From: a virus
DNA: 39,552 bases
Virus record (IMG/VR): IMGVR_UViG_3300035701_000106
Span: 1 to 39,552 of that record
Direction: 5' to 3' (one strand)
Positions 1 to 39,552 of the stretch are shown here, piece by piece; the first letter of the stretch is position 1, and every line of letters starts with the position of its first letter. The notes under the pieces are model-generated. The model was not told the DNA's origin, did not search any database, and worked only from the letters and a program-made list of their open reading frames with translations. Position numbers and translations under genes: made by a program.

Positions 1-83
1 GAATAGATATATATTTCCGCGCCAAGCTTGGGGGCCTTCTCTACCCAGGCATCTGTTCCGTTCCATTCGTAAAGCTTTCCGTT
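1..83. repeat. Terminal direct repeat, left copy (identical to 39470-39552)
   Basis: The first 83 bases are identical to the last 83. The overlap lies inside the 126-bp array, so it may mark a circular assembly or a contig broken in a repeat. Collapsing it gives 39469 bp, keeps the long reading frame intact and leaves exactly seven blades. Confidence 0.9.
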
Positions 84-691
84 GGGGGCTGTTCCCCCGT
101 AGAGCTTCCCATTGTAGACGGCAAGAGCCCAAATGCGCGTCTCCGCGCCAAGCTTGGGGGCCTTCTCTACCCAGGCATCCGCCCCGTTCCATTCGTAAAG
201 CTTTCCGTTGGGATATGTTCCCCCGTAGAGCTTCCCGTTGTAGACGGCGAGAGAATAGATACGCGTCTCCGCGCCCAGTATCGGGGCCTTCTCTACCCAG
301 GCATCTGTTCCGTTCCATTCGTAAAGCTTTCCGTTGGGGGCTGTTCCCCCGTAGAGCTTCCCATTGTAGACGGCAAGAGAATAGATAATTAGTTCTGCGC
401 CCAGTATCGGGGCTTTCTCCACCCAGGCGTCCGCCCCGTTCCATTCGTAAAGCTTCCCGTTGGGGCCTGTTCCCCCGTAGAACTTCCCGTTGTAGACGGC
501 AAGAGAGTAAATGCTTGTTTCCGCGCCAAGCTTGGGGGCCTTCTCTACCCAGGCATCCGCCCCGTTCCATTCGTAAAGCTTTCCGTTGGGATATGTTCCC
601 CCGTAGAGCTTCCCATTGTAGACGGCAAGAGAATAGATATATATTTCCGCGCCCAGTATCGGGGCTTTCTCTGTCCAAATAATATTATCCG
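1..691 (-). repeat. Tandem 126-bp repeat array (propeller blades 1 to 6)
   Basis: Each unit is exactly 126 bp, or 42 codons. The blade tryptophan codon lies at 675-677, 549-551, 423-425, 297-299, 171-173 and 45-47. Units differ at few positions, mainly three spots: lysine or isoleucine before LGAE, the two residues before IYS, and the residues before PNGKLYEW. Such high DNA identity points to recent expansion or ongoing conversion between units. Confidence 0.95.
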
Positions 692-1784
692 CTATCGCGG
701 CCGGTTCGGAAATCGTTGTGGCCGAGGCTTCGTTTGAATAGCCAGAGAAAGAAGCTCCCTGCTTTGCCCGGACTTTATAGGTATAGGTATGCCCCTTCTC
801 AAGACCAGGGTCCCGGTAAAAATCTTGATTCGGCGCAAGGGTAATGATGAGCGCATATTCTCCGGCCCCTTCCTTCCGATAGACCTCATGACCAGCTTCC
901 TCTGAGGAATTGTCCTGGAAGATGAGTTCATTTATGGTGTCTGACCAGGGCGTAGCCACAAGGTTTGTCGGGTCGGAGATGGCCGCGAAGGTCCGGGCAT
1001 TGACCACGGCCGAATAGTTGGACATTCCGCTATCGTTATAAGCATAGATTCTGTAATAGCGGAGGGTGTTCGAGGAGAGGCCGGTTATCTGAAAGGACGT
1101 GACATTTGCCCCAAGGGTTTTGACCAGGGACCAACCGGTTGTCCCGTCCGCGCTTTCTTCGACCTTAAACCCCGTCTCATTATTTGAGTTGTCCTGAAAA
1201 CTGCCATTAATCTGAGATGTGCTGACGGCCGTGACCTGGGGATTCGACGGAGTAGCTGGAGGATCGGCCGTGAAAATATCAACCGCGTTCGAGCTGGAGC
1301 TTTGCGTCAGCGCATTATAGGCAACGACTCCGTAGGAATACCAGGTTGCCGGAGTCCGACCCGTGTCATTCCATTCGGTGACTGAGGCCCCAAGCGTTGC
1401 CGCCAAACCGCCGTCCCGATAGACCTTGACCCCGGAGGCGTTCCCGGTATTGTTTTGCCAGGCTAGATGAATCTCTGTGCTTGAAACACAAGAGCCGCCG
1501 AGATTGGAGGGGGGGATGAGGGGGGTCGTGGCTGAGGCAGCGCCAGAATCCGCCGATTCTCCGGGCGGCGGGTCATTGGTAGAACCTCGAATCACATAGC
1601 TATAATTTGTGCCGTCCTGACAAGTGGGGTCTAAATATGACGTAGCCGATCCGCCCAGTAGGACCAATTGGGCTCCATCTCTCCGTACTTCAATAGAATC
1701 GTAATTGTCTCCATTCGACCATTCGAGTGAAACAGAATTATAATTTGGATTACAACTTGTTATAGTAGGGGCCGCAAGCGCCAT
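1..1784 (-). CDS. Giant tail hub/fibre protein, N-terminal part (FN3 domains plus beta-propeller blades); runs off the window edge
   Basis: The frame opens with ATG at 1784, overlapping the stop of the upstream tail gene, and stays open to base 1. The same frame resumes at 39552 and ends at 37306. Joined across the 83-bp terminal overlap it gives 1315 residues. Residues 1 to about 365 form roughly four fibronectin type III-like units, recognisable from motifs such as YSYVIRG, YRIYAYNDSG and YTYKVRAKQG. From residue 370, 42-residue repeats begin (WVEKAPKLGAE, then LAVYNGKLYGG, then NGKLYEWNG), which look like blades of a kelch-like beta-propeller. FN3 domains in tail hub and fibre proteins commonly display binding surfaces, so receptor or glycan binding is my inference. 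Ordinary gene calling would miss this part because it has no stop inside the window. Confidence 0.85.
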   Translation of the reverse strand, partial: MALAAPTITSCNPNYNSVSLEWSNGDNYDSIEVRRDGAQLVLLGGSATSYLDPTCQDGTNYSYVIRGSTNDPPPGESADSGAASATTPLIPPSNLGGSCVSSTEIHLAWQNNTGNASGVKVYRDGGLAATLGASVTEWNDTGRTPATWYSYGVVAYNALTQSSSSNAVDIFTADPPATPSNPQVTAVSTSQINGSFQDNSNNETGFKVEESADGTTGWSLVKTLGANVTSFQITGLSSNTLRYYRIYAYNDSGMSNYSAVVNARTFAAISDPTNLVATPWSDTINELIFQDNSSEEAGHEVYRKEGAGEYALIITLAPNQDFYRDPGLEKGHTYTYKVRAKQGASFSGYSNEASATTISEPAAIADNIIWTEKAPILGAEIYIYSLAVYNGKLYGGTYPNGKLYEWNGADAWVEKAPKLGAETSIYSLAVYNGKFYGGTGPNGKLYEWNGADAWVEKAPILGAELIIYSLAVYNGKLYGGTAPNGKLYEWNGTDAWVEKAPILGAETRIYSLAVYNGKLYGGTYPNGKLYEWNGADAWVEKAPKLGAETRIWALAVYNGKLYGGTAPNGKLYEWNGTDAWVEKAPKLGAEIYIY

Positions 1785-2881
1785 TACACAAACTCCTGGA
1801 AGTTCGCCGTCCAGGACCAGTTATTAATGTGATTGCGGACGGGCCTGACCATCTCCGTGAGGTTCACGAGGTAGGAGGTCGTGTTCGGCGCCGTTGAGTC
1901 AAAACAAACGATGAGGGCTTTATGAAGGCCGCACTCATTGAGAAGCGCCTTGACCTCCACGGCCTCAGCGTCGCTGAGCCCGCTATAGGGCAGCGACCAA
2001 CCGTCAAGCGGAGGCTTCTCCTGGCCGTAGAGGTTCCGGCTGTCGGTAGTGGTGAGATCGCTCACGTCGTCCGGCCCTTCCTCGCCGCCGACCCAGAAGT
2101 TCCTGGCCGGTTCAAAATACTTGGCCAGGGAAATTGTCGAGACCTGGATATAGGAGCTTGTGTTTGCCGGGTCTTCAACGCTCACCCGGAAATAACGCTT
2201 TGTCCTTGAGGCGGATAGGAATTTATAAATCGAGCCGGAGGCCCAAGCGATTACGTCTGTCGTGAGGTTCGTCGTGAAGGCCGTATCATCCGCGCCATAG
2301 AGCTTGATCGTGGCCGCCGATGAGATATTGTGCCCCAGGAGGCCGATGAAATTCGCCTCGCAGGGCACCAAGAGATCAATGTCAATATAGGCTTTCGGGT
2401 AGTGGATTCGGCGGTTGTCCGAAGTGTAAGTTGCCGCCCCGGTGTCATTGGCCGCATCGCTGTAGCCGCAGAGATCGGAAATGTCCGTGGCCTTGTGCGT
2501 CCCGTTAAACCATCGAAGCGTAAAGTTTCCGCTTGCCGCTATCGTAAATTTGGCCGTGGATTCAGAATAGGTCACCGTATAGGTCAGATCTCCGGCCACA
2601 TCGAGTTGTGTTTTTATCTCCGTGGCCAGGGATGCTCCGTTATAGGAGCCCACGGTCAGAGTAGCCGTGAGTTCCGCCCCGCCCTCATCGAAGTCTATGT
2701 ATTTATTATTTGCGGTCACCACAAAAAGCCCGTTGCCGCTCCCCGTCCCATAGCGCGTCCGCCAGAAATAGGACAAGGAATCTATCTGGGTATCCTCAGC
2801 CGGGTTCTGGGGGTGTTCGCAACAATGGTCTATGATGACCCCGCCGCGCCAACGATTGAGATAGATAAATCTTGTCGGCAT
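1784..2881 (-). CDS. Distal tail-like structural protein
   Basis: This 365-residue protein lies between the tape measure and the hub, where siphoviruses usually encode the distal tail (Dit) or an adaptor. Residues about 55-135 hold a motif common in virion proteins: YIDFDEGG, then a valine and threonine-rich strand, then SYNGASLATEIKTQLD and a YTVTYSESTAKFTI strand pair. The middle is a beta-sandwich-like region with KLYGADDTAF and a KRYFRVSVED strand, followed by an acidic, glycine-rich linker. The stop overlaps the start codon of the hub gene, so translation is probably coupled. The Dit role is inferred from position; the virion-structural call is firmer. Confidence 0.7.
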   Translation of the reverse strand: MPTRFIYLNRWRGGVIIDHCCEHPQNPAEDTQIDSLSYFWRTRYGTGSGNGLFVVTANNKYIDFDEGGAELTATLTVGSYNGASLATEIKTQLDVAGDLTYTVTYSESTAKFTIAASGNFTLRWFNGTHKATDISDLCGYSDAANDTGAATYTSDNRRIHYPKAYIDIDLLVPCEANFIGLLGHNISSAATIKLYGADDTAFTTNLTTDVIAWASGSIYKFLSASRTKRYFRVSVEDPANTSSYIQVSTISLAKYFEPARNFWVGGEEGPDDVSDLTTTDSRNLYGQEKPPLDGWSLPYSGLSDAEAVEVKALLNECGLHKALIVCFDSTAPNTTSYLVNLTEMVRPVRNHINNWSWTANFQEFV

Positions 2882-2882
2882 T

Positions 2883-5009
2883 TTAGCTCACTATTGCGGA
2901 GGGGATTTTGAATCGGTGGAGATCGGCTTGGCGCGTCACCACCTTGATGATCCGCTGGTCAATTTTCTGACCATCAAGATAAATAGGAACCGTGAGATAT
3001 ATATTATCCCCGCCGCGCTTTGCAACGACCGCTTCAATTCTTTTCATGAGCGGCTCGACAGGAAGAGCAGCTTCTAGGCCGCGATCCCCCACCTCATATC
3101 GACCACCAGCCAATAGAGTAGGCCGGTCGAACATCGCGCCCTTGGCCAGGGGGATGGCCTGGGATTTGATGAGGGCAATTTGAGCAAGTCCCATTGCCCC
3201 GACCAGCGCTGCCATAATAAAATTCATGGGCGGTAAAAGGGTTAAAGCCTTACTGACAGCTTCAGCCGTATTGATGATGGCCGCCACTATAGCTACGGCC
3301 TTTTGTTTTTCGGCCGCCTCTTTCTGGAGTTTCTTTTTCTTAGCCTCATAATCCTTTTCGGCAAGCTCCTTGGCATCCTTATATTCTTTGTCGAGTGCGG
3401 CAAGGGCCGTCTGTTTTTCGGCCTCGCTCATCATGGAATCTTCAATATCCTTTTTCCGTCTCTCATATTCGGCGTCCATCGCCTCCTGCTTCTTCTTGCT
3501 CTCCTCATCCAGCTTTGCCGTTTGATTAGCATAATAATTGCTATAGGCGGATTGAATAAGCCCAAGAGCTTGTTGCGAAAAGGCGACAATGGCCTCGATT
3601 GAATCCTTATTTTTCTTTACCCAAACACTCAAGGCTGAAGCCGACTTAACATAAGCCTGGGCCACCACAAACGGAGTCTTGGCAAAAACATCATTTAGGC
3701 TTCGGGCTGCCGGGACAAGTTCATCCGTCAATACCGCTGCCGCTTTTTTTGCGGGCGCGGGAATACCCTTGAGATAAGTTTCAAGGTCCTTGATCTTTTT
3801 ATTCAGGGCTTCGATAGCACCAGGCGTTTTTTCTTTCGTGTCAGCCGTGAGCCGCGCTAAAGCTAGTCGGGTATTATCAAGTTCTGTTTGAACATCCGTA
3901 CGGAGTCTGACTCCGAATTGTTTAGCCCATTCATCGGTAGTTTTAAAAGCTAAGCCGCCTTCCTTTGTCCCTTTAGCTAAATCCACAAGAAATTTAAGGA
4001 TCGGCGTTCCGCTTAAATCCTTGCCGGACTTGGCTAGATCAATAAAATATTTATTATATTTCTCGGCCCATTCTTGACCCGCTGCCCAGGACCTGTTTAA
4101 TTCGCGTTGTTCATCGGCCAGATTGTGGAGGTGGTCACTTACAAGTTTTATCGCGAGGCCCAAAGGCGGCCAAGTCCACATGGCTTTCTTGCCGACTTCA
4201 ACGAGAACATTTACGGCCTTCCCCGCCTCCCCGCCGTCTTTTGCGAAATGCTGAAGTATTAGACTCGCATCCTCCATCACTTTTTTGAGCTGTGCGTTTT
4301 CTATGATTGCCTTGCCAACGGCTTCCTTAAATTCTTCGAGATTGTTTTTGAGTTGTGCAGTCGCCCCGGCGAAAGTTCCCGTTGCGTCCGTCGCCCGCTT
4401 ATAAAAACTCTCCAGTTTTTCAAGAAGCTCAGCGCGCTTTTCTTCGGCTGTCCCCGTCTCCTTGACCTTAATCCCATAGCGGCTAAGGGCGACGTAGTTC
4501 CCCTCCATCGCCTTGGTCACCATCATAGCGGCCGATTGGAGGTCTATTCCCAGGACACTTGATAAACCGATGGCCCCCCGTGTGGCCCGGTCTATTCCAT
4601 CGCGGTCAAGACTAGTGAGTTGAATAAGCAAGGTCTGAGCGCTCTTGATCGCCTCATCGTTATAGATTGTGCTTTTTTGGAGAGACTTGGCATACTCAAT
4701 AAAATGCTTTGAATTGGTATCGGCTTCCCGGCCGGTAGCTCCCAGGGCGGATTTAAGGGCGGCATCAACCTTCTCAGCCTCTATGGCCGCCGTTATCGAG
4801 CCTTTTATAAAATCAGTAAATTCATGAAGTGCCTTTCCGGCTATGGCCGTGACAGCTACTCCGGCAAAAATCTGCTTCCACAGACCATCAAAGGGAGACT
4901 TCGCTTTCTCCGCCGAAGTGCCCATGTCCTTGAGCTTATTATCAAGGTTTTTGGCGGACTGCTCGGCCTTCGCGCTGTCAAAAGCAACGGATATGTTTAT
5001 GTCAGCCAT
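2883..5009 (-). CDS. Tail tape measure protein
   Basis: This 708-residue protein would span the lumen of a long tail, measure its length and pass into the host envelope during DNA injection. It is largely helical. It has a hydrophobic segment near residues 50-75, charged coiled-coil stretches (about residues 500-565, rich in lysine and glutamate) and a hydrophobic helix pair near 575-620. The C-terminus carries YEVGDRGLEAALPVEPL, a pattern typical of tape measure ends. It follows the frameshifted tail chaperone genes, the classic order. By the usual 0.15 nm per residue the tail would be around 105 nm, which is an estimate from length only. Confidence 0.93.
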   Translation of the reverse strand: MADINISVAFDSAKAEQSAKNLDNKLKDMGTSAEKAKSPFDGLWKQIFAGVAVTAIAGKALHEFTDFIKGSITAAIEAEKVDAALKSALGATGREADTNSKHFIEYAKSLQKSTIYNDEAIKSAQTLLIQLTSLDRDGIDRATRGAIGLSSVLGIDLQSAAMMVTKAMEGNYVALSRYGIKVKETGTAEEKRAELLEKLESFYKRATDATGTFAGATAQLKNNLEEFKEAVGKAIIENAQLKKVMEDASLILQHFAKDGGEAGKAVNVLVEVGKKAMWTWPPLGLAIKLVSDHLHNLADEQRELNRSWAAGQEWAEKYNKYFIDLAKSGKDLSGTPILKFLVDLAKGTKEGGLAFKTTDEWAKQFGVRLRTDVQTELDNTRLALARLTADTKEKTPGAIEALNKKIKDLETYLKGIPAPAKKAAAVLTDELVPAARSLNDVFAKTPFVVAQAYVKSASALSVWVKKNKDSIEAIVAFSQQALGLIQSAYSNYYANQTAKLDEESKKKQEAMDAEYERRKKDIEDSMMSEAEKQTALAALDKEYKDAKELAEKDYEAKKKKLQKEAAEKQKAVAIVAAIINTAEAVSKALTLLPPMNFIMAALVGAMGLAQIALIKSQAIPLAKGAMFDRPTLLAGGRYEVGDRGLEAALPVEPLMKRIEAVVAKRGGDNIYLTVPIYLDGQKIDQRIIKVVTRQADLHRFKIPSAIVS

Positions 5010-18485: not shown

Positions 18486-18836
18486 TTAGATTTCATCCTT
18501 CCATTCAAAATGGCAGTAGTCCTGAAAGGTCCAGCCACCACCCCAGGTCATCCCCTCTTCCTCCCACATCCGGCCCAGGAGAGCGTATTCAGGGTCGGAC
18601 TGCCAGACAGCCGCATTGTCGCGGATTATTACCAAGTCAATGGCCAAACCCCGTTGATGTTGTGAGATTTTATTGATTCCATCACACTGGCTTTTCCCTT
18701 CGTCAAAGAGTTTCTTTTGCTCCTCGGCGGAGCGGATGAATGAATAAGGCAGGAGTTTGATTTCGTGAATCGAAGCCATGACGATGAGTTTGGAAACCTT
18801 GCGGAAAAACTCAATGCACTTATCAGTTCGCGTCAT
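18486..18836 (-). CDS. Endolysin, M15-type peptidase
   Basis: The 116-residue product carries the zinc motif of M15 peptidases: SQHQRGLAIDL at residues 58-68 (histidine 60 and aspartate 67) and QDYCHFEW near the end (histidine 109). An upstream arginine in SFIRSAEEQKKLF fits the substrate-binding position. Phage members of this family (for example T5 endolysin) cut the peptide stem of peptidoglycan. There is no signal peptide, so release would need a holin. The gene overlaps its upstream neighbour by ATGA. Confidence 0.9.
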   Translation of the reverse strand: MTRTDKCIEFFRKVSKLIVMASIHEIKLLPYSFIRSAEEQKKLFDEGKSQCDGINKISQHQRGLAIDLVIIRDNAAVWQSDPEYALLGRMWEEEGMTWGGGWTFQDYCHFEWKDEI

Positions 18837-19057
18837 GCCCGATCCCCCTCTATGAAGGCGGCCACGGCCGGAAAGTCCTCAATCCGCTCGGCTATATCCT
18901 CATCAAGATAAATGCCGAGTTCCCGGAGGGCCATCCGCTCATGCTCATCAAGCTGGATTAAATTGCGTAGATATAGCCGGTAGGCAGGAGTGATCACCTG
19001 CTTTCCATGAATCATCATAAAGGGCCGATCCGGCCGGCCGTTGGTATGATTAGGCAC
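18833..19057 (-). CDS. Small acidic protein at head of late operon
   Basis: The frame starts at GTG 19057 and gives 74 residues with no recognised domain. Two in-frame ATGs at residues 14-15 (MMIHGKQ) are alternatives, and neither choice has a strong ribosome site. The C-terminal half is helical and acidic (YLDEDIAERIEDFPAVAAFIEG). It overlaps the endolysin by ATGA and is the first gene after the palindromic intergenic region, so it may be the first late gene. Confidence 0.55.
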   Translation of the reverse strand: MPNHTNGRPDRPFMMIHGKQVITPAYRLYLRNLIQLDEHERMALRELGIYLDEDIAERIEDFPAVAAFIEGDRA

Positions 19058-19110
19058 GGCTCAAGCGTACACCCTGATTTTTGGGGGTTTTTAGGGGAGG
19101 ACGTAGAGTG

Positions 19111-19147
19111 TGACCGGAACGGTCAGGGTCTGTGACCGGAGCGGTCA
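19111..19147. promoter_or_regulatory. Pair of 15-bp palindromes upstream of the late genes
   Basis: TGACCGGAACGGTCA (19111-19125) and TGACCGGAGCGGTCA (19133-19147) are near-identical inverted repeats, 22 bp apart centre to centre, which is about two helical turns. Each is followed by GGGTCTGTG. They lie in the only sizeable gap between early and late minus-strand genes (19058-19176). This is what tandem operator sites for a dimeric regulator look like; a control site for late transcription is my inference. I see no confident sigma-70 promoter on the minus strand here. Confidence 0.65.
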
Positions 19148-19176
19148 GGGTCTGTGTAAAAAATACCGCTTGACAA

Positions 19177-19461
19177 TCAAATTATTTTTATATCGAAAGT
19201 CCCTTTACCGGGGCTGGTCTTATAAACCCATATCTCTCTAGAATAGACGGCGTCACCGTTGCTTTGTTCAATTTCCTTGACCACAGAGAGCAACGCCTTA
19301 TCGAGACATACTTTTATTTTTTTGATATTTTTGCCCTGGTCGGCCGTCAAGTCGTACGTAGAATTACGAAGCCTTAAGACATTATAGCCAATCCGCTCAA
19401 GTAGGTTTGTTGCTACCTGAATGGCCCGGCGGTGGCGGCGTTCTATAACCTCATTGGACAT
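19177..19461 (-). CDS. Small protein with nuclease-like fold pattern
   Basis: The 94-residue product reads like a reduced PD-(D/E)xK fold: an N-terminal basic helix ([20 protein letters not shown]), a strand, then YDLTAD (aspartate 37) and a strand [10 protein letters not shown] where the E-x-K would be expected. The catalytic glutamate-x-lysine is not evident, so it may be inactive or something else. It overlaps the XRE-sigma4 gene by eleven bases and ends at the palindrome-bearing gap. Confidence 0.5.
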
Positions 19462-24597: not shown

Positions 24598-25032
24598 CTA
24601 GAATTCCCACCCGCATCCGCTATAAAATTTGCGCCTTATTATTTTGCCAAGCTCAAGCGGCTCGGCCCCTTCCCTAATTGGGATTTCTTTTACGTTCCAG
24701 GTCGTTCCGGCCTTCGTCCAGAGCTGGAGGTGTTCGCCGGGCAAAAGGAATTGAAAATATTTTTTGAATTCATCTACTCGCTTCTTCACGCCGGATGAAC
24801 CGGAGGCTTGAATCCAGAGAAGGACATTAGGCTTGCGAGCACAGAGGTCCGCACCCCATGTATCCAGACTCAATTTGGAGAAAATCATCCGCCCATCCTT
24901 CATCATCGGCTTTCCGCCTGGGCCAAATATCGGCCTTGCTAGAGATGGGAAATTGCGGACGATCCAGCCCCGCTCAGTGAGCCAGGCCGCGATCCAGCGT
25001 TGGTTGGAATTGCCAGCGGAGCGTTTAGTCAT
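24598..25032 (-). CDS. Degenerate PD-(D/E)xK / resolvase-like protein
   Basis: The 144-residue product has GNSNQRWIAAWLTERGWIV at its start, then DTWGADLCARK (aspartate 62) and a strand LLWIQASGSSG where the E-x-K motif is replaced by Q-A-S. The layout matches small resolvase- or VRR-like phage nucleases, but key residues differ, so activity is doubtful. It may still bind branched DNA. Confidence 0.55.
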   Translation of the reverse strand: MTKRSAGNSNQRWIAAWLTERGWIVRNFPSLARPIFGPGGKPMMKDGRMIFSKLSLDTWGADLCARKPNVLLWIQASGSSGVKKRVDEFKKYFQFLLPGEHLQLWTKAGTTWNVKEIPIREGAEPLELGKIIRRKFYSGCGWEF

Positions 25033-25733
25033 AAAAATAATCCTTGTTGTCGAGGGACGTTTTTAAAATAATTAATCCAGTTATCTCGCCTCCAATTTGT
25101 GCGGTTATGACAGGAATGACAAAGCGTTATTAAGTTATTTGGTTCAATGCTCAGTTTGTTGTAATCAATATGATGAACCGCATGAGCCTTTTCTTTTTCT
25201 TTTTTCCCACAAATAAAACAAATAAATCTATCGCGTCTTCTAATTTTTATTTTTAATTTATCAAATTCAAAATTATAACCAGTCTTAGATATTCCACCAT
25301 TCCAAGCGGGATTTTTTTCCCCGGATTTTGATATAGATAATTTTTCTTTGTGTTCGACAGTAAAAGGATAACGACAATGTTTTCCTCTTTTTGCTTCGGA
25401 TAATTTTTTCTTTGATTCTGGAGTATGGTGCCATCCTATCCGATAAGATTTCCCAAGGAGGGCTGCTCGAATTTTTGCCTTAGCTTCTGAAGTGCGATGT
25501 TTTCCGGTCATTGATGCGGCTATTTTTTCTTTATGTTCTACTGTAAAAGATTTTCCCTTCATGGCCGCTCTTATTTTTTCTCTACGTTCAAGGGAAAGAT
25601 GCCTGCCTGGAAATTTTATGCCCTTGTGCGATAAAGACAATTTTATCTTAGTCTCTATTGTTCGAATTTTTCCTTTATTAGCCGCAGATATTTTTGATTT
25701 AGTTTCGCCTGTATGATGTTGCCCGATTCTCAT
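25029..25733 (-). CDS. HNH homing endonuclease with NUMOD3 repeats
   Basis: The 234-residue product opens with several copies of a NUMOD3-type DNA-binding motif (HTGETKSKISAANKGK, then TSEAKAKIRAALLGK and TPESKKKLSEAKRGK). It ends with an HNH nuclease: CFICGKKEKEKAHAVHHIDY and ITLCHSCHNRTN. Such proteins cut and spread between phage genomes. The gene is clearly more AT-rich than its surroundings. No intron boundary is obvious, so it appears free-standing. Confidence 0.9.
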   Translation of the reverse strand: MRIGQHHTGETKSKISAANKGKIRTIETKIKLSLSHKGIKFPGRHLSLERREKIRAAMKGKSFTVEHKEKIAASMTGKHRTSEAKAKIRAALLGKSYRIGWHHTPESKKKLSEAKRGKHCRYPFTVEHKEKLSISKSGEKNPAWNGGISKTGYNFEFDKLKIKIRRRDRFICFICGKKEKEKAHAVHHIDYNKLSIEPNNLITLCHSCHNRTNWRRDNWINYFKNVPRQQGLFL

Positions 25734-33998: not shown

Positions 33999-34172
33999 AT
34001 GCGTATCTTCCTCATTCGCTGTCCAGACTGCATGAAGATGCTCGCCGTTCATGAGCGCGATAGCTCCGGCCTTACGATCATGCACTGCGAACGATGCAAA
34101 AAGGACTTCACGATCCGGGATGTGAATGATAAGCGCATGAAGGCCCAGGTCGAGCCGCTCAAGCCAAGTTGA
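33999..34172 (+). CDS. Small Com-like zinc-ribbon protein
   Basis: A 57-codon plus-strand frame lies between the lipoprotein and integrase. It has IRCPDCMKMLAV and MHCERCKKDFTIRD, two CxxC pairs like the Mu Com zinc ribbon, and ends overlapping the integrase TTG start. It may regulate translation of the integrase or bind nucleic acid. Confidence 0.65.
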   Translation: MRIFLIRCPDCMKMLAVHERDSSGLTIMHCERCKKDFTIRDVNDKRMKAQVEPLKPS

Positions 34173-35167
34173 CTTCAATCATCAAGCGCGGAAAATTCTA
34201 CTGGATAGATTACTACCACGACGGCAAGCGGAAAAGGCAATCGCTCAAGACGGATAAGCTCCTAGAGGCCAAAGATCGGGCCAAGCAGATTGAGGAAAGC
34301 CTGCATAAGTTAGGGGCTGGACCTCTGCTATCGGACTTTGCCGAGACATACTTTGCCTGGGCGCGCGCGACCAAGCCAACCTCAGCCCAAGAGGAAAAAT
34401 GGCGATTTGATAAGATCATGATCTTCCTGAAAGCCGAAGGCGTCCTGACTCTATCGGCCATCACCCCCCTGGTCGTGGAAAAACTCCGAGCCAAGCTCCT
34501 GGAGCGCGAATTGACCAAGGCCACTATCAACCGCTATCTTCAATTGCTTAGGGGGATGTTTTACCGGGCTGCCGATTGGAATTTATTCTCTAGCCCGAAT
34601 CCGCTTCGTAAGGTCAAGTTTTACCGAGAATCATCACCTATCCAAGTGCCATCGGCCGAGGAGATCAACCGAATCCGGGAGGCTGCTCGGCAAATCAGCG
34701 CCAAACCTCGGTCTAAACTTCAGGCCGCTTTCTCCGACATTGTAGAGCTGGCCCTTAATACTGGTCTGAGAAAATCGGAGCTTCTACATCTACGCTGGAA
34801 GGATATTAAAGACGGCGAAGCCTATATTCAAGGGAAAGGTGATAAGGTCCGCAAGGTGCCGTTCAATCAGGCCGCCTTGGCCGTCATTGAGCGACAGCTC
34901 CGGGCGGGGGAATTTGTCTTTGATATCCCCAACCGCAATCATCCGAATTTGCTCCGCCGCACCGTTCTCATGGCCGGGCGCCTGGCCGGTGTTTCTTTTC
35001 ATGTGCATCTTTTCCGTCATCGATTTGCCACAGAACTTTTAGAGCGCGGAGTGGATATTGTTACTATCTCGGAAATCCTCGGCCACAGCAAGATCGCTAC
35101 AAGCCTGATTTATAGCCACAGTTCCAGGGAGAGAAAACGGGCGGCGGTCGATATGCTCAAGTTGTGA
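34169..35167 (+). CDS. int: Tyrosine recombinase integrase
   Basis: The 332-residue product has an N-terminal arm-binding strand region (RGKFYWIDYYHDGKRKRQ), a core-binding helical domain and the catalytic domain: arginine 201 in NTGLRKSELLHL, HLFRHRFATELL with histidine 280 and arginine 283, histidine 306 in EILGHSKIA, and tyrosine 315 in LIYSHSS. It would integrate the phage into the host chromosome. The start is TTG 34169, overlapping the upstream stop (TTGA). Confidence 0.93.
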   Translation: MTSIIKRGKFYWIDYYHDGKRKRQSLKTDKLLEAKDRAKQIEESLHKLGAGPLLSDFAETYFAWARATKPTSAQEEKWRFDKIMIFLKAEGVLTLSAITPLVVEKLRAKLLERELTKATINRYLQLLRGMFYRAADWNLFSSPNPLRKVKFYRESSPIQVPSAEEINRIREAARQISAKPRSKLQAAFSDIVELALNTGLRKSELLHLRWKDIKDGEAYIQGKGDKVRKVPFNQAALAVIERQLRAGEFVFDIPNRNHPNLLRRTVLMAGRLAGVSFHVHLFRHRFATELLERGVDIVTISEILGHSKIATSLIYSHSSRERKRAAVDMLKL

Positions 35168-36832: not shown

Positions 36833-37306
36833 CTATGCAGCCGTATCCCAGTACCCGACAAGATAAACGTCAAAAGTTCCTTCCTTGGCGAGTTTATATT
36901 CAAAAATCCCATCCGCATCTACCTTCTGAATAATTTGGCAGCCCGCATTATCGCCAAGAACATCTAATGGTCCACTGGCATGATAAGAAAACCCCGCTAT
37001 TCCCTCGTAGTCGGCCGATGACCCGTTGAGTCTTGTATAAAAATTTGCCCAACGCCCTCCCGTAGTCCATCTCACGGCCAAAATAACCGCCGTGCATTTC
37101 GCCGACGTGTAGGCCGTCACGTCTAAATCATGCCATGCGTCATCATTCGTCAGGGTCAAGAGTTGCGGAGTTGTCTTCCAATTCAGCCGGAGAAGATTGC
37201 GGTCAAGATAGCCCCTGATCTGTACCCATAGTCCGTGGACAATATGCCAGTCATCATTAAGATGATGCTGGAAATCGTTATCCTTAGCAAAATCCTTGTC
37301 GCCCAT
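36833..37306 (-). CDS. Beta-rich minor tail protein
   Basis: The 157-residue product overlaps the hub gene stop by one base (TAATG with GGAGG upstream). It has a short charged N-terminus (KDFAKDNDFQHHLNDDWHIV) and a beta-sandwich-like body (HDLDVTAYTSAKCTAVILAV; GTFDVYLVGYWDTAA). Position just after the hub suggests a tail-tip or receptor-binding component. Family unknown. Confidence 0.6.
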   Translation of the reverse strand: MGDKDFAKDNDFQHHLNDDWHIVHGLWVQIRGYLDRNLLRLNWKTTPQLLTLTNDDAWHDLDVTAYTSAKCTAVILAVRWTTGGRWANFYTRLNGSSADYEGIAGFSYHASGPLDVLGDNAGCQIIQKVDADGIFEYKLAKEGTFDVYLVGYWDTAA

Positions 37307-39552
37307 TAGACCTCCACCGCCTGTATAATACTTTTCCCCGCGCTGATTTGTTTCTGGATTGACATGATGCGGAGGACGATTTCATTAGCTGAGCCGGAGG
37401 TTGAAAAGTAGCGATCCCGGCTGAAATAAATGAGGTCCCCGGCCATGCAGCCGAAAAGCAGGGTGTGGACCGAAAAATTCACATAGTCTTTGTTGGCGTC
37501 ATTTTTAAGCGCGGTTGCCACGGCCTCGGCGTCTGCCTTGACGGTCAGCCAGGTATAAAAATCGGGGGCTTGAGACGCTTGCTTTTTCCATATTGATTGA
37601 TTATCCACAACCGGAACCGAAAGCCAGATATTATCTTGTTTCGGGTCTTCGGCGTAATAAACATTTATGCCAGCGAAAACCGATTCATTCCCCCGGTTCC
37701 GGCTGAAGTCAGATATCTCGCAATTGCGAATGTGAATAGCATCTGAATCCGGCGTAGTGCCTAACGTTTTGAAGCCCAGTCGGCCCTGACCGTCTTGGAA
37801 GACATAGGCCGTGCAAGAGTGCTCAAGTATTCTGAAAACTTCGAACAGGGTTGTCTGTCGATGGCCGGGACTGGCCAGGATGCGGGTACAGTCGTACTTC
37901 GTCTTGTAGATTGAGTCCAGGTCGAGTTCGGCCAGGCTGAGGCCCCGGAGCGTCTGACAGATCCAAATAAAGAGGTCTGCGCCATTCGTGAGAAGTTCGG
38001 CGGCATTATTGCAGAGCCCCTCATAAGTGACCAGAATTCTGTCGGCGGCATCAAAGGCAAGGCTCCGGCTCAGGGTGATGATTCCGCGCTGATAGTCGAT
38101 GTAGTAATCCGTGCCCGCCACAAGTGTGGTTCCGTTCTGTGTTACCGTGGTGACGGATTTTATCCGGCCATCCCTGAGTTTATATTTCCGGTCTGTGGGG
38201 TTAATGCAGATAGCGGGGAAGTTCGTGACCGTCCCGATCCCCATCGGGATCACCTTGCCGTTGTCATTATCGGAGAGATTCAGATAATCGGTTTTCCAGA
38301 GATGATTGATCGGCAAATCGCGGTCAAGGTTAGCGCGAAAATCCTTAAGGTCAAAGATGATGGATAAGTCTGAAATCGAAATATTATCTATGAAGGCGGG
38401 GAAGATGTTCTCGAATTCCGAGTAGGCAAAGCCCGGCCCGCCGGCCAGGACCCGGACCTTCCTGTTCTCGAAGGTATAGCGGGCATATCGTTTGTCCCAA
38501 TAGTATTCCGTTCCGAGTTTCGGGTTCTGGATCGTGATGGAACCGGAGGCCAGGGCGGAGGTCCCCTCAAAGAGCGGGGAGAGCTGTTGGCAGGCGTCCG
38601 GGATGTTGGCTTTTTCAAGTAGGGGCAAATAGAGCTTTTCGTTAAAAACGGCCGGGTTAGGGGCAAGAGAATAATTTATGAAGTAAAGCCAGAATGCCCC
38701 CTCCATGAAATAATTTATCGGGCTGTCTCCGCCCGAAGTATGAATATACATTTTCCGGCCATAGAAATCGAAATAGAAGCTTGAGACCGTGGATTCCACA
38801 TCCGCGATGGAGGTCTTCTCCGTCAGGGCTTCCCCATTCGCAAAGGCTTCCTCAATATCAATTCCCCGCTCCTGGACCGCAACTTCATAGGTATAGGTTT
38901 TGCCGGAGGTCAAGGTCCACCCGGCCAGAGTGATCTTGAGGTTCATTTCGATCGGATAAGCGAGCGTTGCAATAGGTTTGCGGATGAGTTTTCTAAAAGT
39001 GGTCGGGGTGTAGCTGGCCAAGGTCGTGTCATGGACCGCCGAAGTATAGGAGGAGTTCCCGGCATTGTTGTAAGCCCGGATTTTAAAATAATATTCCGTG
39101 CTCGGGCTCAGAGATCGGGCCAAGAAATAACCAACTCCGGCCGTGAGCTTCGCTATCTCGGTATAGTCCACTCCCCCGTTCACGGATTTTTCAATCTTAT
39201 AGCCTACCTCCCCGGTCGTTGGGGTCCAGGTCAGGCGCATGGATTTATCGCGTATTTCGCTAATAACAATAGCGGTTTTCCACTCATAAAGCTTCCCGTT
39301 GGGGCCTGTTCCCCCGTAGAGCTTCCCATTGTAGACGGCAAGAGAATAGATATATATTTCCGCGCCAAGCTTGGGGGCCTTCTCTACCCAGGCATCTGTT
39401 CCGTTCCATTCGTAAAGCTTTCCGTTGGGGGCTGTTCCCCCGTAGAGCTTCCCATTGTAGACGGCAAGAGAATAGATATATATTTCCGCGCCAAGCTTGG
39501 GGGCCTTCTCTACCCAGGCATCTGTTCCGTTCCATTCGTAAAGCTTTCCGTT
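37306..39552 (-). CDS. Giant tail hub/fibre protein, C-terminal part; runs off the window edge
   Basis: This is the continuation of the frame that starts at 1784. The ATG at 39240 is internal: the frame is open upstream through NGKLYEWKTAIVISEIRDKS and the repeat blades to 39552. After the last blade come an FN3 domain (RLTWTPTTGEVGYKI; YYFKIRAYNNAGNSSYTSAV) and about 570 residues of tail-hub-like sequence. These include SLFEGTSALASGSITIQNPK, a NNAAELLTNGADLFIWICQT helix, LEHSCTAYVFQDGQGRLGFK and a final barrel (MAGDLIYFSRDRYFS, EIVLRIMSIQKQI) like the end of gp27/44-type hubs. It would close the distal end of the tail and anchor the propeller. Confidence 0.82.
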   Translation of the reverse strand, partial: NGKLYEWNGTDAWVEKAPKLGAEIYIYSLAVYNGKLYGGTAPNGKLYEWNGTDAWVEKAPKLGAEIYIYSLAVYNGKLYGGTGPNGKLYEWKTAIVISEIRDKSMRLTWTPTTGEVGYKIEKSVNGGVDYTEIAKLTAGVGYFLARSLSPSTEYYFKIRAYNNAGNSSYTSAVHDTTLASYTPTTFRKLIRKPIATLAYPIEMNLKITLAGWTLTSGKTYTYEVAVQERGIDIEEAFANGEALTEKTSIADVESTVSSFYFDFYGRKMYIHTSGGDSPINYFMEGAFWLYFINYSLAPNPAVFNEKLYLPLLEKANIPDACQQLSPLFEGTSALASGSITIQNPKLGTEYYWDKRYARYTFENRKVRVLAGGPGFAYSEFENIFPAFIDNISISDLSIIFDLKDFRANLDRDLPINHLWKTDYLNLSDNDNGKVIPMGIGTVTNFPAICINPTDRKYKLRDGRIKSVTTVTQNGTTLVAGTDYYIDYQRGIITLSRSLAFDAADRILVTYEGLCNNAAELLTNGADLFIWICQTLRGLSLAELDLDSIYKTKYDCTRILASPGHRQTTLFEVFRILEHSCTAYVFQDGQGRLGFKTLGTTPDSDAIHIRNCEISDFSRNRGNESVFAGINVYYAEDPKQDNIWLSVPVVDNQSIWKKQASQAPDFYTWLTVKADAEAVATALKNDANKDYVNFSVHTLLFGCMAGDLIYFSRDRYFSTSGSANEIVLRIMSIQKQISAGKSIIQAVEV
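39281..39552 (-). repeat. Tandem 126-bp repeat array (end of the propeller, blades 6 and 7)
   Basis: Two blade tryptophan codons lie at 39514-39516 and 39388-39390. The last unit ends NGKLYEWK at about 39281. Repeat 39344-39469 is identical in sequence to bases 1-126 except for the 14 bases that follow the GCAAGAG block there. With 83 bp overlap collapsed, blades 1-6 at the left end and 6-7 here make seven. Confidence 0.9.
39470..39552. repeat. Terminal direct repeat, right copy (identical to 1-83)
   Basis: The final 83 bases equal the first 83. No longer end-to-end overlap is possible, because extending it by one 126-bp unit meets mismatches just after the GCAAGAG block at 121-127. Confidence 0.9.

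Follow-up and report, generated by a model that had tools for sequence, protein, structure and literature searches.

A putative seven-bladed beta-propeller inserted in the FN3 stalk of a probable tail-tip protein of a temperate phage

The window analysed here, an IMG/VR virus record, is a stretch of DNA of 39,552 bases. It encodes an integrase (34169-35167), a sigma-70 region 4 protein, an SLT transglycosylase, a NUMOD3/HNH endonuclease, a replisome organiser, terminase, scaffold and capsid proteins, a gene content that indicates a temperate tailed phage. On the minus strand two frames, 1784..1 and 39552..37306, are both open in the window, and the original prediction took them for the two parts of one gene. 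The contig ends overlap exactly over 83 bp, and joining them gives, as had been predicted, a frame of 1315 residues with a stop at its terminus only. Moreover, the single 1022-aa ORF of a close relative, L006 (IMGVR_UViG_3300049911_000063), aligns with both halves of the gene, and terminase, portal, capsid, tape measure, g1784, the joined gene, g36833 and g35480 are collinear across the join. Since one ORF of L006 covers both halves and synteny continues over the join, we could confirm that both frames belong to a single gene of 1315 codons. The features of the locus are listed in Table 1.

Table 1. Features of the joined gene and its tail-tip neighbours in the window.
Feature	Position	Strand	Evidence or remark
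Tape measure protein	2883..5009	-	phrog_1506 / phrog_27166
phrog_8610 gene between tape measure and joined gene	1784..2881	-	collinear in L006 and L082
FN3-like units 1-4, residues 1-358 of joined protein	711..1784	-	Pfam fn3 E 7.5e-13, three stretches; L006 alignment
Predicted propeller, blades 1-5 complete (42 residues each) and the first 15 residues of blade 6	1..677	-	
Predicted propeller, blades 6 and 7 and the end of blade 5; its first 83 bp are those of window 1-83 again	39280..39552	-	
83-bp terminal overlap with 1-83	39470..39552	.	same 83-mer again at 39344-39426
FN3 unit 5, after the predicted propeller	39019..39267	-	Pfam fn3 E 4.5e-7, residues 96-173 of P0002
C-terminal domain, probable tail hub by gene position	37306..39015	-	phrog_8917; 77-81% identity to L006 and L082

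In the joined protein, a seven-bladed beta-propeller would stand between four FN3 units on its N-terminal side and a single FN3 unit on the other, followed by a probable hub as C-terminal domain. Pfam recognises three separate fn3 stretches upstream of the blade array and one downstream; of the four FN3-like units that had been proposed in front of the array, three are thus recovered, while the fourth is recognised by length and alignment only. A Pfam match to LPD13 (PF18825) in P0001 was rejected, as it comprises 26 residues in the repeat and no stretch passes alone. The best PHROG of the C-terminal domain is one of unknown function, and a model of the domain, which had only three homologues and a pLDDT of 29.9, was not used. 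Because the gene follows those of the tape measure and of a phrog_8610 protein, possibly a distal tail (Dit-like) protein, the domain is probably a tail hub. The proposed location of the propeller on the N-terminal side of a hub domain therefore holds as regards the order, which L012, L036 and L015 repeat with different C-terminal domains; the hub identity is suggested by gene position. In profile comparison, the C-terminal domain showed no similarity to those of L012/L036 and L015.

In the alignment with L006 the propeller is the only large gap; it falls between FN3-4 and FN3-5, where L006 has a clean empty site. A second close relative, L082, also lacks it. Absent from the two closest relatives, the propeller is an insertion and a movable cassette. 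Since these relatives do without it, it is dispensable to the protein. What L082 (1877-5692) has instead is another insert, about 335 residues long and located within FN3-4, which contains two similar repeats and has no match in Pfam. Modules thus seem to come and go in the FN3 stalk of this protein.

Because the array is not contained in any one continuous piece of the window, the fold was modelled on the complete array of a relative, L007, whose blades are 79% identical to those of the window. With nine sequences, AlphaFold gave a mean pLDDT of 93.4 and a pTM of 0.91, and the model has 28 strands in seven four-stranded blades. A Foldseek search with this model retrieved WD40-type propellers (E about 1e-10, TM 0.7-0.75) and also many phage propellers, the latter by fold only. 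Both the propeller fold and the expected similarity to known propellers are borne out by the L007 model, which supports a closed seven-bladed beta-propeller for the window array as well. The window array alone had no significant match among PDB sequences. With a profile of the family, the best PDB matches were Cake8 (1.2e-12) and tachylectin-2 (0.026, not significant). The Cake propellers are designs, unlike the window family, and tachylectin-2 has five blades.

Scanning with the array alignment, we found 55 viral loci and four loci from genome assemblies, all of them MAGs (Flavobacteriales, a DPANN archaeon, Thermoplasmatota and Methanoperedens). The proteins that carry the propeller differ widely. 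In L028, L062 and L064 it lies within phrog_1101 tail proteins, in L028 together with Phage-tail_3 and Rcc01698_C. The propeller of L015 precedes a baseplate-hub-like domain (phrog_196, phrog_1887), and that of L012/L036 is N-terminal to another, unclassified domain. When the propeller is left out, a single LamG match of nearly full length (positions 2-150 or 4-151 of 151) results for each of L010, L027 and L056, which shows that it has been inserted inside a LamG domain; these three belong to unrelated records, one of them a Thermoplasmatota MAG. L016 has the propeller alongside LamG and polysaccharide deacetylase domains. The Methanoperedens MAG contig, whose phrog_1101 tail protein (GTA Rcc01698-like) encloses the propeller and occupies L028:5164-8544, is probably an archaeal provirus or virus. 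Among 50,697 records of isolated phages the array had one weak match, and isolated phages gave no match to P0002; plasmids gave four matches with 24-30% identity. The family is nearly absent from sequenced phage isolates and appears to have been overlooked. Searches of the literature outside subscription for phage propellers and inserted hub modules yielded no account of it, and in the papers searched we did not find the combination of a seven-fold propeller of near-identical blades with a role as portable insert, be it in tail-tip or in adhesion proteins.

What the propeller does may be judged from its variable residues. Residue changes among the window blades occur at positions that are variable in the family (mean entropy 2.67 vs 1.91 overall, permutation p 0.004), and variation is strongest at blade positions 12, 13 and 29. 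By the strand order in the modelled secondary structure, rather than by coordinates, these positions would map to the side of the D-A and B-C loops, one face of the ring. The variable positions, the lectin-like company and the presence or absence in close relatives favour binding to the host surface, where the ligand would probably be a repeating glycan. We consider it rather likely that the joined gene encodes a tail-tip protein with a portable seven-blade adhesion module, which binds the host surface, probably a glycan, and has seven blades by closure. The propeller might instead have a role inside the virion, as a spacer in its structure or as a platform on which another virion protein docks. 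Propellers often serve as protein-protein platforms, and the module sits in a stalk between FN3 units; however, close relatives do without it, the variable positions cluster at few blade sites, and its occurrence in unrelated architectures with lectin-like domains makes a fixed virion partner unlikely. We regard a spacer or platform as improbable, if the least so among the alternatives to host-surface binding.

The exact number of blades needs separate consideration. Seven 42-residue units, 79-92% identical in DNA, are present in the join, and the tandem array of the window is well above chance (TRF scores 938 and 522). As a proof of this number we rejected the 83-bp overlap, since the terminal 83-mer is present three times in the window, at positions 1, 39344 and 39470. 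The overlap thus lies inside the repeat, and joins with extra units are possible from the contig alone. Exact repeats of up to 127 bp are common to both parts of the array, and the overlap length of 83 looks like an assembler word length. The array takes up about 0.9 kb of 39.5 kb, so that about 2% of random opening points would hit it. Both the opening of the contig at this place and the truncation of 13 of 55 non-redundant related arrays at contig ends show that such arrays break assemblies.

The claim of seven blades is upheld instead by the family. Counting with a blade HMM, we found seven blades in 32 of the 42 interior arrays among these 55, and none with more. L040, L041 and L058 also have seven, the frame being permuted so that the array begins and ends with half a blade, which agrees with a ring. 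The exceptions include L071, a frame-split case, and in divergent arrays with fewer than seven the HMM probably misses blades. The true array of the window phage could differ from seven if the assembly collapsed or duplicated units, with a number perhaps varying within the population; the triple 83-mer, the 13 arrays cut at contig ends and the pair L013 and L019 would agree with this. In L013:7620-8954 and L019:1481-2437 the same small gene with identical flanks contains six and three near-identical blades, respectively, which is either a real contraction or an assembly collapse. Given the census and the simplest join of the window, which gives seven, we think a different number unlikely and infer that the window phage has seven blades.

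A further reading, in which the propeller is a hydrolase (a tailspike-like depolymerase), finds some encouragement in the polysaccharide deacetylase domain that adjoins the propeller in L016 and in the propeller folds of phage endosialidases, as mentioned in the discussion of PMC4901313. It is nevertheless very unlikely, as Pfam and PHROGs match no catalytic family in the array and the blades are near-equivalent, none of them having a unique conserved set of acidic residues or nucleophiles.

The mean blade identity within the window array is 0.89, and the within-array means across the family range from 0.37 to 0.89. Between the window and L007, blades at the same position are 0.788 identical and those at other positions 0.782; the values against L010 are 0.751 and 0.747. 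The blades of the window are more alike within the array than between arrays, without positional orthology to L007 and L010, while the related pair L012/L036 retains positional identity (0.753 at the same position, 0.596 at others). The missing positional match to the nearest arrays implies, on sequence grounds, that the window array was amplified or homogenised recently, after parting from them. That separate arrays are nevertheless at seven points to selection for closure. Moreover, among the blades of the window every one of the four possible combinations occurs at pairs of sites (e.g. positions 7 and 13), which is consistent with exchange between blades, although assembly chimeras might also account for it. 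The codons at blade position 13 (TAT, AGC, ATT, CGT, CGC) and position 29 (TAT, GGC, GCC) differ by several bases, as might be expected of a diversity-generating retroelement, but synonymous changes are spread over the whole blade unit and no reverse transcriptase was found among about 27 window proteins scanned (small ORFs and a template repeat being covered less than exhaustively), so that such an origin can be practically dismissed.

Taken as a mechanism, the adhesion module would plug into the FN3 stalk as a portable unit. Its array would arise through amplification, or homogenisation, of blades, and the ring of seven four-stranded blades would close, the number being held at seven because seven closes. 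One face of the ring, presumably that with the variable loops, would then most likely offer seven related sites to a polymer of repeating structure on the host surface, probably a glycan, and the propeller would act as an auxiliary or the main receptor-binding domain. Substitution together with blade-to-blade exchange may diversify a few loop residues. More speculatively, and at present rather doubtfully, the propeller may be a mobile cassette of phages that passes from one tail or adhesion protein to another, unrelated one, either as a single blade or as the whole ring. On reaching a new protein it would be amplified again, closure would fix it at seven, and blade exchange would shuffle its receptor-contact residues without a retroelement. 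Dozens of natural arrays at differing divergence, with a near-constant blade number and natural empty sites, open two questions to direct test, namely the origin of a new propeller from one blade together with the reason for its fixed number, and the way in which tail-tip proteins of phages gain modules for receptor binding.

Highly repetitive propellers amplified from single blades have been described previously (Pereira and Lupas 2022, PMC9218822). They resemble the window array in their near-identical tandem blades; in that work, for WRAP, as in the window family, homology between arrays is found at the level of blades rather than domains, and the assembly trouble caused by identical blades was noted there and met here too. 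However, those propellers are mostly from cellular proteins and have varied blade numbers, and the main text makes no mention of phages, whereas the arrays found here are phage-borne, almost fixed at seven and inserted in tail-tip or adhesion proteins. In evolved Dit and evolved Tal proteins (PMC7291167), a module of a saccharide-binding type is inserted in a distal tail protein and variably present among relatives, as here. The insertion that defines this group was found in our case as well, given the empty site in L006, and a host protein of the Tal or hub type with gp27-like domains would agree with the gene position. The modules of evolved Dit and Tal are BppA-like CBMs, many of them in Dit galectin loops, in contrast to a seven-blade propeller between FN3 units that may bind saccharides. 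A beta-propeller also takes part in host recognition by the siphophages phi11 and 80alpha (PMC4901313, PMC7048315), similar to our proposal, but it has five blades and belongs to a separate trimeric receptor-binding protein at the baseplate periphery, and we found no sequence relation to the window family. PhiKZ gp131C, as cited in PMC4901313, is another case from a tailed phage, with a seven-bladed propeller at its baseplate for which receptor binding has been proposed; this propeller is the C-terminal domain of a myophage baseplate protein, and the likeness is drawn here without sequence comparison.

Some further observations were made in the window and its relatives. In L086, a distant phage relative (capsid 54%), a large ORF (L086:17375-20811) after the tape measure gene has no Pfam or PHROG match; by eye, it looks as if a glycosidase-like domain precedes a hub-like region. 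The NUMOD3/HNH protein of the window (25029-25733, minus strand) is probably a homing endonuclease. Finally, a short tandem repeat with the unit TGTGACCGGAACGGTCAGGGTC (19109-19156, 2.2 copies, 96% match) lies between the genes 18833-19057 and 19177-19461 and is possibly operator-like.
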